A stretch of DNA of 45,023 nucleotides, from assembly GCA_905182445.1 (NCBI GenBank), contig CAJJBM010000012.1:1-45023 (forward strand), read 5' to 3'. Of the stretch, positions 1 to 3,737 are shown piece by piece (within the stretch, counting starts at the first letter, position 1; every line of letters starts with the position of its first letter). The notes beneath the pieces were generated by a model that saw only the letters and a list, made by a program, of their open reading frames with translations, was not told the origin of the DNA and ran no database searches. The position numbers and the translations under genes are program-made. The stretch comes from Pelagibacteraceae bacterium AG-422-B15 (GTDB lineage Bacteria > Pseudomonadota > Alphaproteobacteria > Pelagibacterales > AG-422-B15).

Positions 1-84
1 TTCTACTGCTGGAGCTTCTGCTTCTACTGCTGGAGCTTCTGCTTCTGCTGCTGGAACTTCTGCTTCTACTGCTGGAGCTTCTGC
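1..84. repeat. Four tandem 21-bp repeats coding for the S16 tail
   Basis: Four head-to-tail 21-base units lie at 1-21, 22-42, 43-63 and 64-84, nearly identical (ttctactgctggagcttctgc in copies 1, 2 and 4; copy 3 differs at a few positions). They sit in frame in rpsP and code for a seven-residue unit of the type A-E-A-P-A-V-E on the minus strand. More copies may lie outside the window. The unit is a multiple of three, so copy-number change would keep the frame. Confidence 0.9.
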
Positions 85-438
85 TTCTGCTACCGCAGCT
101 TCTTCAGCTTCTTTTAATGCCGCTAGGCGCTCTTGTGCTTTTTTCTTAGGTAAAGCTTTTTTAGGGTTATTTTTTTGTACAGGCATTGGCACAACATTTG
201 CTTCGCCTAAAAATCTTTCTAATTTTTCTGTTGGCTTAGCCCCTTTACCAATCCATTCTTTAATTTTTTCTAGATCTAACTTTAATCTATCTGGATTATC
301 TTTTGGTAAAAGTGGGTTGAAATGTCCTACTTTTTCAATGAATCTTCCATCTCTTGGACTTCTTGAATCCGCTATTACAACTTTGTAAAAAGGTCTTTTT
401 TTAGAGCCTCCTCTTGATAGTCTTATTTTTAGTGCCAT
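1..438 (-). CDS. rpsP: 30S ribosomal protein S16, 3' end cut by window edge
   Basis: Small-subunit ribosomal protein. The visible 146 codons start with [20 protein letters not shown], followed by the S16 motifs [15 protein letters not shown] and FNPL, so the family call is secure. After about residue 80 a basic stretch ([18 protein letters not shown]) leads into an Ala/Glu/Pro/Val tail, which is still open at base 1. The tail includes four 21-base repeats. S16 is normally about 80-90 residues, so this copy has a tail of at least 55 residues; long charged or Ala-rich S16 tails are known in alphaproteobacteria. The start ATG is at 438 with AGGAG-like bases just upstream. It lies 22 bases downstream of ffh on the same strand, as in the common ffh-rpsP-rimM-trmD-rplS order, so it is probably co-transcribed with ffh. 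Confidence 0.95.
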
Positions 439-460: not shown

Positions 461-1831
461 TTATTTTTTTAAAAATTCTGGTGGTATCTGATTATTAAAG
501 TCTTGTGGCAAGCCCAGATCTTGCAAACCACTCATTCCTTTCTTAGAAATTTTTTTCATCATATCAGCCATCTTACGATGCTGTTTTAAAATTCTATTTA
601 CTTCTGAAACTACAGTACCTGATCCTTTGGCTATTCTTTGTTTCCTTGAGCTGTTTATCATTTTTGGTTTTCGTCTCTCCAATTTTGTCATTGATAAGAT
701 GATTGCCTCTTGTTTTTTAACTGCATCGTCACTTGCATCATTAGCTTTATCACCTAATTTTTTCATTCCAGGTATAAATTTTAGCATGCTTGATATCCCA
801 CCCATTTTTTTCATTTGATTTATTTGAGACAACAAATCATTTAAATCAAACTCGCCTTGCTGCAATCTTGCGGCCATTTTTTCAGCATCTAATTGATCAA
901 TATTTTCAGCAGCTTTTTCGACTAAAGTAATTACATCTCCCATATCTAAAATACGATTTGCAATTCTGTCTGGATGAAAAATTTCTATATCGTCTATTTT
1001 TTCACCGTTACCAATAAACTTAATTGGACATCCAGTTGACATTTTTAAACTTAAAGCGGCACCTCCACGTGCATCACCATCAACTCTGGTTAAAATTGAA
1101 CCTGTTATATTAATTTTTTCCGAGAAATTTTTAGCAACATTAATTGCATCTTGTCCCGTCATACTGTCGAGTGTTAAAAGTGTTTCTATAGGATTAACTA
1201 TTTTTTCTATATCTTTTAGCTCTTGCATTAAATTATCATCTATACTTGTTCTTCCAGCTGTATCAAAAAGAATTAAATCGATATTATTTATCTCAGCTAC
1301 GGCAATTGCCCTCTTAGCTATATTCTTAGAGGTTTGATTTTCAACTTTTGGAAGTATTTCAACATTTATATTATTTGCTAATATTTGAAGTTGCTCAAAT
1401 GCTGCTGGACGATTAACATCTAGTGATACTAGAAGAATATTTTTATTAAATTTAATTTTAATAAAATTAGCTAACTTGGCAATTGAAGTTGTTTTACCAG
1501 ATCCTTGTAATCCCACCAACATTAATGATGAAGGTTTTTCCCCGTCAATATTAATAGTAGCAGTATCATTTCCAAGAATATTTACTAACTCATCATTAAC
1601 GAGTTTAATTATCATTTGACTTGGCGATATAGACTGGATAATTTCCTGGCCTATAGCTTTTTGCTTAACCTCTACAATAAACTTTTTAACAATATCAAGT
1701 GAAACATCCGCCTCTAATAATGCCCGTCGAATATCGCGCATAGCTGCGTCTAAAGCAACCTCATCAATTGAGCCTGTCTTCTTTAAACCACTAAATACGG
1801 CCTGAAGCCTATTACTTAAATTTTCAAACAT
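461..1831 (-). CDS. ffh: Signal recognition particle protein Ffh (SRP54)
   Basis: GTPase of the signal recognition particle. It binds signal peptides as they leave the ribosome and hands the complex to FtsY at the membrane. It is full length at 456 aa. The N domain spans about residues 1-90. The G domain has the P loop GLQGSGKT (107-114), DVNRPAA (about 138-144) and DTAGR (190-194). A Met-rich M domain fills about 300-456, with MKKMGGISSMLKFIPGM and the RNA-binding segment near GSGTVVSEVNRILKQ. The start ATG is at 1831. The 5' leader between it and the divergent dapF is unusually structured. rpsP follows after 22 bases. The receptor gene ftsY is only about 1 kb away on the other strand. Confidence 0.98.
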   Translation of the reverse strand: MFENLSNRLQAVFSGLKKTGSIDEVALDAAMRDIRRALLEADVSLDIVKKFIVEVKQKAIGQEIIQSISPSQMIIKLVNDELVNILGNDTATINIDGEKPSSLMLVGLQGSGKTTSIAKLANFIKIKFNKNILLVSLDVNRPAAFEQLQILANNINVEILPKVENQTSKNIAKRAIAVAEINNIDLILFDTAGRTSIDDNLMQELKDIEKIVNPIETLLTLDSMTGQDAINVAKNFSEKINITGSILTRVDGDARGGAALSLKMSTGCPIKFIGNGEKIDDIEIFHPDRIANRILDMGDVITLVEKAAENIDQLDAEKMAARLQQGEFDLNDLLSQINQMKKMGGISSMLKFIPGMKKLGDKANDASDDAVKKQEAIILSMTKLERRKPKMINSSRKQRIAKGSGTVVSEVNRILKQHRKMADMMKKISKKGMSGLQDLGLPQDFNNQIPPEFLKK

Positions 1832-1837
1832 ATTTTA

Positions 1838-1945
1838 TTCACTGTGTGCTCCAAACAACAAGTATTGCACCAGTGGGCGAAACTCGCTGACTGATGTCGA
1901 CACCCTTTTTCAAGGGTACCGCAGAATACTATTCTTGCGGAAAAC
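1838..1945 (-). ncRNA. Candidate structured leader RNA upstream of ffh
   Basis: This stretch is visibly richer in G+C than its surroundings and contains serial hairpins. Arms are plus-strand coordinates. (1) 1840-1844 plus 1846-1849 pair with 1867-1875, nine pairs with one bulge. (2) 1877-1880 with 1884-1887. (3) 1902-1907 with 1912-1917; read on the minus strand the loop is GAAA, a GNRA tetraloop, and two extra G-U pairs lengthen the stem on that strand only. (4) 1919-1927 with 1931-1940, nine pairs with one bulge. The tetraloop and wobble pairs favour minus-strand transcription, as a 5' leader of ffh. I cannot assign it to a named RNA family. The SRP RNA domain IV consensus is not present. 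Confidence 0.5.
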
Positions 1946-2041: not shown

Positions 2042-2860
2042 ATGAAGAAATTTGATTTTATTAAAATGCATGGTCTTGGTAATGATTTTGTTATTATTGA
2101 TGAAAGAAATACTAAGGTAAGCTTGTCTCACGCAGAAATAGTCTCTGTTGCGAATAGACATACTGGAATTGGCTGTGATCAACTAATTACAATTAATAAA
2201 GACAATATATCAGATATTTTAATTCGTTTTTTTAATTCGAATGGGGAAGAAATATCAGCTTGTGGCAATGGGTCAAGATGCGTCGCAAGACTTCTTATGG
2301 AAGAAGACAAGACATCTGCCATATCAATAAAAACACATGCAGGCTTATTAGATTGTAAAAAGATTTCTAAAAATATTATAAGTGTTAATTTAGGAACTCC
2401 AAAATTAAGTTGGAATGAAATACCGCTTGATAAAGAATATGATACAAATTCAATTATATTTAACATAAACAATTTTTCAATTTCCAATCCAAAATTTGTA
2501 AACGTAGGAAATCCTCATGCAATTTTCTTTGTAGATAATTTAGATAATTTTGATATAGAGGATTTTGGACCTCTAATTGAAAATGATAAAATGTTTCCTG
2601 AAAAATGTAACGTTACTATTGCCCAGGTAATATCACTAACACATATTAAGATTAATGTATGGGAGCGAGGTGCCGGAAAAACACTTGCATGTGGAACTGC
2701 TGCATGTGCAACTGCTGTTGCTGCATATATTAATAAATTAAGTAGTAATAAAATAGTTGTTTCTTTACCCGGTGGGAATTTAGATATTGAATATAATTCA
2801 AATATAATAATGTCTGGTGCTACGGAAATAAGCTTCAAAAGTAGTTTTGAAATAAGTTAA
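2042..2860 (+). CDS. dapF: Diaminopimelate epimerase
   Basis: Interconverts LL- and meso-diaminopimelate for peptidoglycan and lysine synthesis, in the cytoplasm and without a cofactor. At 272 aa it is normal length for the family. Both catalytic cysteines are in their signature contexts: Cys74 in ACGNGSRCVAR and Cys217 in ACGTAACATAVAA. The opening HGLGNDFV is also diagnostic. The start ATG is at 2042. It is the first gene of a short rightward pair with ftsY, which begins four bases after the dapF stop. In many alphaproteobacteria a radical-SAM tRNA methylthiotransferase gene lies between these two; it is absent here. Confidence 0.97.
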   Translation: MKKFDFIKMHGLGNDFVIIDERNTKVSLSHAEIVSVANRHTGIGCDQLITINKDNISDILIRFFNSNGEEISACGNGSRCVARLLMEEDKTSAISIKTHAGLLDCKKISKNIISVNLGTPKLSWNEIPLDKEYDTNSIIFNINNFSISNPKFVNVGNPHAIFFVDNLDNFDIEDFGPLIENDKMFPEKCNVTIAQVISLTHIKINVWERGAGKTLACGTAACATAVAAYINKLSSNKIVVSLPGGNLDIEYNSNIIMSGATEISFKSSFEIS

Positions 2861-2864
2861 TATA

Positions 2865-3737
2865 TTGTTTAAAAATTTTACAAATAGATTAGGAAATATA
2901 TTTTCTTCTAAAAAAATTGATGAAAATTCTCTTCTTGAATTAGAAGAGCTCCTTTTAATTTCAGATATTGGAATTGAAACTACAGATAAGATAATTAATA
3001 AACTTAGAAATGAAAAATTTTCACCAAGCTTTGATACAATTGAAGTAAAGTCAAAGCTTGCTGAAATAATATTAAATATTATTGAACCATTTCAAGAAGA
3101 GTTTCCAAAACTAAGCAAGAGTAAGCCCACTATCATTATTTGTATTGGTGTAAATGGATCGGGGAAGACGACTACTGTGGCAAAGCTAGCCCACCACTAT
3201 AAAGAAATGAATTGTAGTATAGTTCTTGGAGCTGCAGATACTTTTAGAGCTGCGGCTACAGAGCAGTTGTCTTTATGGGGTAAAGAAATGAATTTAGATA
3301 TAATTTCTGGAAATCAAAACTCTGATCCTGCCAGCATTGCCTTTAAATGTGTTGAAAGCACTTTAAACAATGAATTTGATCTCGGTATAATTGACACAGC
3401 TGGCAGGCTACAAAATAGAACTGACTTAATGGAACAGCTAAAAAAAATTGATAAAGTAGTAAAAACTAAAAACAACTTATTAAATCAAAAAACTATAATG
3501 ATCATTGATGGAACAACTGGCCAAAGCTCTATTAAGCAAGTTGAAGAATTTTCAAAATATATAAATATTGATGGCTTAATTATATCTAAACTTGACGGCT
3601 CTGCAATTGGAGGAACAATTGTAAGTATTATTGACCACTTAAAAGTTCCAGTATTAGGACTAGGAGTGGGTGAAAATAAGTCTGACTTAGAGGAATTCAA
3701 TGCTAAAAAATTTGTTAATAGAATTTTAGATAATTAG
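2865..3737 (+). CDS. ftsY: SRP receptor GTPase FtsY
   Basis: Membrane-side receptor of the signal recognition particle; its GTPase pairs with that of Ffh. At 290 aa it holds an N domain (about 1-80) and a G domain with P loop GVNGSGKT (95-102), DTFRAA, DTAGR (177-181) and SKLDG (241-245). The acidic A domain found in longer homologues is missing, so this is a minimal NG-type FtsY, which is common in alphaproteobacteria. The only good start is TTG at 2865, four bases after dapF, since the N domain begins at once (FKNFTNRLGNIF). It converges on the enolase-superfamily gene with a nine-base gap. Confidence 0.96.
   Translation: MFKNFTNRLGNIFSSKKIDENSLLELEELLLISDIGIETTDKIINKLRNEKFSPSFDTIEVKSKLAEIILNIIEPFQEEFPKLSKSKPTIIICIGVNGSGKTTTVAKLAHHYKEMNCSIVLGAADTFRAAATEQLSLWGKEMNLDIISGNQNSDPASIAFKCVESTLNNEFDLGIIDTAGRLQNRTDLMEQLKKIDKVVKTKNNLLNQKTIMIIDGTTGQSSIKQVEEFSKYINIDGLIISKLDGSAIGGTIVSIIDHLKVPVLGLGVGENKSDLEEFNAKKFVNRILDN

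Follow-up and report, generated by a model that had tools for sequence, protein, structure and literature searches.

The ffh motif RNA upstream of ffh-rpsP in a SAR11 bacterium: two further hairpins, a promoter box and a conserved 3′ tail in a known alphaproteobacterial family

What kind of RNA is encoded in the gap between ffh and dapF of Pelagibacteraceae bacterium AG-422-B15, and what might it do for the genes behind it? The window (the whole analyzed stretch of DNA, 45,023 nucleotides in length) carries ffh (461-1831, minus strand) on one side of this gap and dapF (2042-2860, plus strand) followed by ftsY (2865-3737, plus strand) on the other; the setting near the genes of both SRP GTPases, to which a sequence-only reading of the DNA had drawn attention, is thus correctly described. 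The nearest named relatives of the encoded Ffh belong to the Pelagibacterales (89% and 83% identity). The next gene of the operon is rpsP, which we take to be followed by rimM, trmD and rplS; at its truncated end, a 21-base tandem repeat of 4.9 copies (window positions 1-103) gives S16 a C-terminal Ala/Glu/Pro repeat.

The gap had been described as G+C-rich and structured, and both properties are real: The G+C content of positions 1838-1945 amounts to 0.472 versus 0.325 for the window and exceeds that of 99.4% of all 108-nt windows, and the minus-strand fold (−35.7 kcal/mol; z −3.0) was better than those of 200/200 shuffled sequences (none as low). As the plus strand folds about equally well (z −3.37; likewise better than 200/200 shuffles), the strand is not given by the single-sequence fold; it was assigned to the minus strand, to which the Rfam match (see below), the conserved promoter box and the direction of ffh all point. 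Four consecutive hairpins had been claimed for this strand. The two nine-pair hairpins (P1 and P2, the latter indeed with a GAAA loop at 1911-1908) and the third one (P3) held up, but the fourth was not counted: It results from a pairing by RNAfold of CACUGGUGC with GCACACAGUG further 3′ that competes with P3, and, by eye, none of the leaders of the same genus (L162, L164, L165 and L181) showed CACUGGUGC paired with the GGAG region.

A cmscan search of the whole window against Rfam, as had been suggested along with the sequence-only reading, yielded RF01793 (“ffh sRNA”; 1860-1911, minus strand; 54.8 bits at a cut-off of 35) as sole match at the gathering score; no plus-strand RNA family reached its cut-off. 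The stretch belongs to a family already described, and its detection is hence a rediscovery. Meyer et al. 2009 described the ffh motif in the ffh-dapF gap of Pelagibacter ubique as one bulged hairpin in which two C residues are conserved, suggested it to be a regulator of ffh, and cite its detection in metatranscriptomes; Rhodospirillales and Caulobacterales are stated in the pertinent section to be without it (PMC2704228). According to name, place and structure, RF01793 was presumably derived from this motif. The RNA of the window agrees with the published motif, which likewise came from SAR11, in gap, strand, bacterial class and two-C hairpin (PMC2704228): The match immediately precedes ffh in the same orientation, and both internal-loop C residues are present (C1889 and C1875). 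However, the single hairpin did not prove to be the whole conserved unit, since RF01793 spans only P3, and not P1, and the hairpins P1 and P2 covary as well; this corrects the extent of the family and is no ground for excluding the window's RNA from it. Compared with the one bulged hairpin of the description (PMC2704228), two covarying 5′ hairpins, a promoter box and a 3′ tail are added here (Table 1). The element itself is already known; new are P1, P2 and the tail as parts of the family and its wider spread, neither of which was found in the open-access literature as searched without supplementary files.

Table 1. Positions of the leader elements and of the genes behind them in the window.
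Feature	Position	Strand	Description	Basis
−35 box TTGACA	1975-1980	minus	presumed leader promoter	conserved TTGAC position; sequence reading
−10-like box TAATTT	1952-1957	minus	weak, putative; 17-nt spacer	sequence and position in SAR11 relatives
Hairpin P1	1919-1940	minus	4+5 pairs with bulged A; outside RF01793	covaries in SAR11 and class-wide
Hairpin P2	1899-1920	minus	nine pairs, GAAA loop	covaries in SAR11 and class-wide
Hairpin P3	1868-1896	minus	core of RF01793	RF01793, 54.8 bits; R2 match 1850-1896, 56.8 bits
P3 internal features	C1889-C1875; A1888-C1876	minus	conserved mismatch; neighboring apposition	columns of alignment A4
Conserved 3′ tail	1850-1867	minus	UUGG-like consensus end	column counts of alignment A4
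ffh	461-1831	minus	ATG at 1829-1831; gene led by the RNA	Pfam SRP54, SRP_SPB, SRP54_N
rpsP (ribosomal protein S16)	1-438	minus	next operon gene, runs off the window	PF00886 at 229-414; translation

Covariation in relatives, on which the sequence-only reading had made its leader depend, was found in the SAR11 alignment (A1; 59 distinct leaders, obtained from 73 loci by removal of duplicates). P1, P2 and P3 were paired in 93.5% (7 pairs counted), 86.4% (7) and 100% (11) of the alignment cells, respectively, and the covariation score of 0.238 compared to 0.135 in shuffled alignments was reached by 0/500 shuffles; slid versions of the helices were paired in only 37-47% of the cells. Neither the number of further pair types (19 observed versus 21.7 shuffled) nor that of pairs changed on both sides (9 versus 7.4; reached by 62/500 shuffles) lent support within SAR11. 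The P2 loop belongs to the GNRA type in 34/59 leaders, with GAAA, GUAA, GCAA, GGAA and GUGA all occurring. The three-hairpin structure recurs across the class: In the alignment to the covariance model R1 (built from 33 SAR11 leaders), all 12 pairs of P1 and P2 change on both sides, with 87.7% (P1) and 89.1% (P2) of the cells paired, values that lean towards the structure as this alignment (A3) was fitted to it. Over all tests of P1, P2 and P3, the score was reached by 0/500 shuffles, and the slid controls had 25-51% of their cells paired.

The two 5′ hairpins share nucleotides. In the window, nucleotides of the 3′ strand of P1 also form the basal pairs of P2, namely G1920 and G1919 (and C1921, paired with G1898). 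Columns 46, 67 and 92 of the SAR11 alignment change jointly (G-C-G in 49, A-U-A in 9 and G-U-U in 1 of the 59 leaders), column 67 being pairable with both column 46 (P1) and column 92 (base of P2) in 58/59, though not simultaneously; the A-U-A form is spread over several genera (g2, g318, g319) and reappears in g3 (leaders L194 and L195). Outside of SAR11, the overlap is weaker: Among the class-wide sequences with letters at these positions, two of the three shared ones pair both ways in 63/79 and 52/74 cases, and the third with both partners in only 26/62. This triple covariation may be taken as a hint, not as proof, of mutually exclusive helices and, thus, of two alternative states of the RNA.

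For P3, 134 sequences were reduced to 106 by dropping near-duplicates and then aligned (A4); 23 of the 106 rows were taken from 36 genomes without previous match and two from four genomes with a match to R1 only, all chosen by eye. Both sides vary at eleven of the 12 P3 pairs. Of the two C residues in the C-C mismatch, the 5′ one is present in 104/106 and the 3′ one in 106/106 sequences, counts that have to be read with the fact that these rows were found by parses favoring C-C. The adjacent position forms a standard pair in 47/106 sequences (C-G 31, G-C 7, G-U 6, U-A 3) and another combination in 59, A-C being the commonest non-standard form. Judged from these columns, the published bulge (PMC2704228) would be revised to a 1x1 C-C mismatch beside a covarying apposition.

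Downstream of P3, the tail motif TT[GT]G sits at a distance of 7-16 nt. Its UUGG-like end is kept in 21/41 leaders with less than 40 nt to the ATG, in 43/51 with 40-100 nt and in 8/13 with more than 100 nt (expected: 5.7, 10.3 and 1.7, respectively); as it is kept whatever the distance to the ATG, the tail is more than just a ribosome-binding site. A long-range pairing of the RNA 5′ end with this tail, as displayed by many single folds, was rejected as a general feature: Once the G+C content was controlled for, matched partners paired no better than mismatched ones (SAR11: −8.51 versus −8.50, better in 27/53; other alphaproteobacteria: better in 45/90). The uncontrolled permutation test (observed value reached by 8/2000 permutations in the other alphaproteobacteria, 0/2000 in all and 1039/2000 in SAR11) owes its significance in the former two sets, in our interpretation, to differences in G+C content.

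RF01793 matched 175/197 genomes of the order, 75/289 of the class and 34/200 of a phylum-wide draw, the searches over 40 genomes being run with stricter filters by which weak matches are lost. An ffh gene lay beside the match and ran away from it in 89/95 loci, the other six having no ffh match in the fetched stretch. The R1 model recovered 89/95 sources at E ≤0.01; on whole genomes it matched 48/278 and remained below RF01793 because it is tuned to SAR11. The stretches preceding ffh were then inspected in 40 genomes, namely 36 without match to RF01793 or R1 (taken in listing order) and the four with R1 only. As the parse for P3 gives extra weight to C-C and scores of at least 13 were also obtained in 202/2000 shuffled upstream stretches, R1, trained on SAR11 only, was relied on for the 36 genomes: With filters off, 21/36 were matched at E ≤0.01, and all 26 genomes with a recognized P3 ranked above the 10 without. 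Most of the recovered hairpins have C-G, and not A-C, beside the C-C mismatch. The model R2, comprising P3 and tail of the 106 sequences, matched 244/385 alphaproteobacterial genomes, part of which had also supplied its training sequences; 57 genomes newly drawn for this survey (G662-G751) were among the matched ones. In the phylum-wide draw, R2 matched 46/200 genomes, all of them Alphaproteobacteria and none outside the class. In all 43 R2 matches without RF01793 that were picked for having a listed ffh coordinate, the hairpin immediately preceded ffh and shared its strand (43/43). Two R2 matches each were seen in G007, G159, G718 and G724. By these searches, the predicted leader is more widespread in the class than RF01793 detects.

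On the ffh strand, 131/139 leaders carry TTGAC at a distance of 60-170 nt upstream of P3, compared with 13 for the opposite strand and a shuffling expectation of about 11; a TANNNT-like box at 15-19 nt from it is present in 55/139. A simple sigma-70 scan reported no promoter in the window. Spacing from the two boxes would place the transcription start near 1945-1946, i.e. at the edge of the interval delimited in the sequence-only reading. Intrinsic terminators were not found in the window (0). A run of at least four U within 10 nt of P3 is present in 49/118 non-SAR11 leaders versus 7/118 in a control window; in SAR11 it follows P3 in 1/23 leaders, and because of this rarity attenuation is not the common mechanism. 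In SAR11, 21-42 nt separate P3 from the start codon, a distance hardly sufficient for a second promoter plus a ribosome site.

Comparison of the related sequences shows position, strand, promoter box, three covarying helices, a near-invariant C-C mismatch and the tail to be properties of the predicted RNA, a SAR11 representative of the ffh motif known from Alphaproteobacteria. The view that it forms, on the ffh strand, a 5′ leader of ffh-rpsP, as the sequence-only reading had proposed, is borne out by position, strand and covariation in relatives. Because of position, orientation and the short distance to the ATG in SAR11, a cis-acting leader is the best reading, and we regard it as the probable one, with attenuation as the putative mechanism where a U-tract follows P3 and another route in SAR11. 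Transcription would start just 5′ of P1, and the RNA would open with P1, P2, P3 and the conserved U-rich tail before entering ffh. P3 and tail may be bound by a factor (as a first guess, a protein of the operon) or respond to translation, and would thereby set the output of ffh-rpsP. In lineages with a U-tract, premature termination would give rise to an abundant short leader RNA; in SAR11, which lacks it, the element would act through translation or mRNA stability. The nucleotides common to P1 and the base of P2 could provide a two-state step.

Among the alternatives, a stand-alone, trans-acting sRNA with P3 as its terminator, its position before ffh being a matter of origin, would agree with the Rfam type of RF01793 (“Gene; sRNA”), with the terminator-like U-run of the non-SAR11 leaders, with a tail that is kept at any distance to the ATG, and with the predicted terminator and microarray signal of sm5 in Sinorhizobium meliloti (PMC2573895). 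It is nevertheless unlikely given the invariable location directly upstream of ffh in the new checkable matches (43/43) and in the 89/95 loci of the earlier set in which ffh was found, and given the SAR11 leaders, in which P3 lies so close to the start codon and almost never precedes a U-tract. A constitutive structural 5′ end, which protects the ffh mRNA or guides its processing without regulation, appears about as improbable: Stable hairpins right at the presumed start site are what it predicts, but stability alone leaves the C-C mismatch (104/106 and 106/106) and the tail unexplained. As to the SRP, RF00169 had no match in the window, and the sequence-only reading was right in not equating the gap with SRP RNA, which is an intact, separate gene of the same genome (contig C27, 50 bits); the likeness to the bacterial small SRP RNA is one of functional neighborhood only. 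P3 could still mimic the Ffh-bound region of this RNA, which we take to be domain IV, and thus permit autoregulation by Ffh; SAR11 P3 has GUCAG and the A-C apposition in common with the 5′ side of that domain. The genome's own SRP RNA, however, has a GCAGCAGCC stretch and an apical loop that P3 does not share, and C-G, G-C, G-U or U-A replace the A-C apposition in 47/106 sequences. Meyer et al. likewise found no resemblance (PMC2704228), and such mimicry has to be considered very improbable.

The specific link to SRP control that had been drawn from the neighborhood fared less well than the leader itself: The neighborhood fits, but P3 bears no SRP RNA signature and rpsP follows ffh just downstream in 79/80 leader-bearing genomes, so that control by a ribosomal protein is equally compatible. 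Ribosomal-protein leaders are a common kind of leader, and an autoregulatory one that serves one of the operon's ribosomal proteins (S16 or L19) instead of Ffh would fit the presence of rpsP within 1 kb of ffh in 79/80 leader-bearing versus 29/33 leader-lacking genomes (Fisher p 0.025, kinship ignored) as well as the rpsB and rpsL leaders that Meyer et al. report from the same organism (PMC2704228). Yet this association is weak and uncorrected for kinship, the RNA precedes ffh and not rpsP, and the four leader-lacking genomes in which rpsP is separated from ffh (G020, G034, G076, G163) yielded no leader in the stretches retrieved upstream of rpsP or of ffh, one of which is cut by a contig end. 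The missing leader before a displaced rpsP neither proves nor excludes control by a ribosomal protein. In these four genomes the 1 kb behind ffh does not contain rpsP, and linkage and leader may have been lost together. Taken as a whole, the rpsP-ffh linkage points weakly to a control of the whole operon or by a ribosomal protein, and a leader serving S16 or L19 remains doubtful, albeit less so than the alternatives above.

Descriptions from other Alphaproteobacteria fit the cis-acting leader. The RNA sm5 of S. meliloti resembles that of the window in its location between dapF and ffh, in the ffh strand, on which a microarray signal was obtained, and in a predicted sigma-70 promoter and Rho-independent terminator; with a length of 108-258 nt, it is listed in the relevant part of the publication as an sRNA candidate without link to RF01793, and is compared here by description only (PMC2573895). 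The “ffH leader RNA” named from RNA-seq in Bartonella bacilliformis is likewise termed a leader, the passage on it giving neither structure nor mechanism (PMC7717549). The SAR11 rpsB and rpsL leaders are also structured, precede translation-linked operons and may work alike (PMC2704228); ribosomal-protein leaders differ from the ffh leader in that ffh is the first gene here and a protein ligand only a candidate. In Mesorhizobium huakuii, RF01793 was assigned to a 441-nt RNA of the region IGR_Pb, apparently on a plasmid, a placement with no obvious fit to the ffh position seen here (PMC5596092). In the passages concerned of two further papers, Ffh appears solely as the SRP protein (PMC2881028, PMC7143759).

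For the family, the corrected extent (three hairpins, promoter box and tail) defines the segment to be cloned: Constructs confined to RF01793 would cut P2 in half and miss P1, and the database model misses many members of the class. Control of Ffh levels is “not fully understood” according to Meyer et al. 2009 (PMC2704228), and with a leader before ffh-rpsP in most of the class, this question becomes testable in genetic model alphaproteobacteria. As a speculative and rather improbable reading, the ffh motif would be the 3′ third of a two-state leader of about 100 nt in most Alphaproteobacteria, in which P1 and the base of P2 compete for the GG at the end of P1 (CGG in SAR11). An operon protein, or the supply of SRP or ribosomes, would determine which of the two prevails and thereby whether P3 and tail permit expression of ffh-rpsP. 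If true, the protein targeting machinery would be coupled to ribosome production across a bacterial class.
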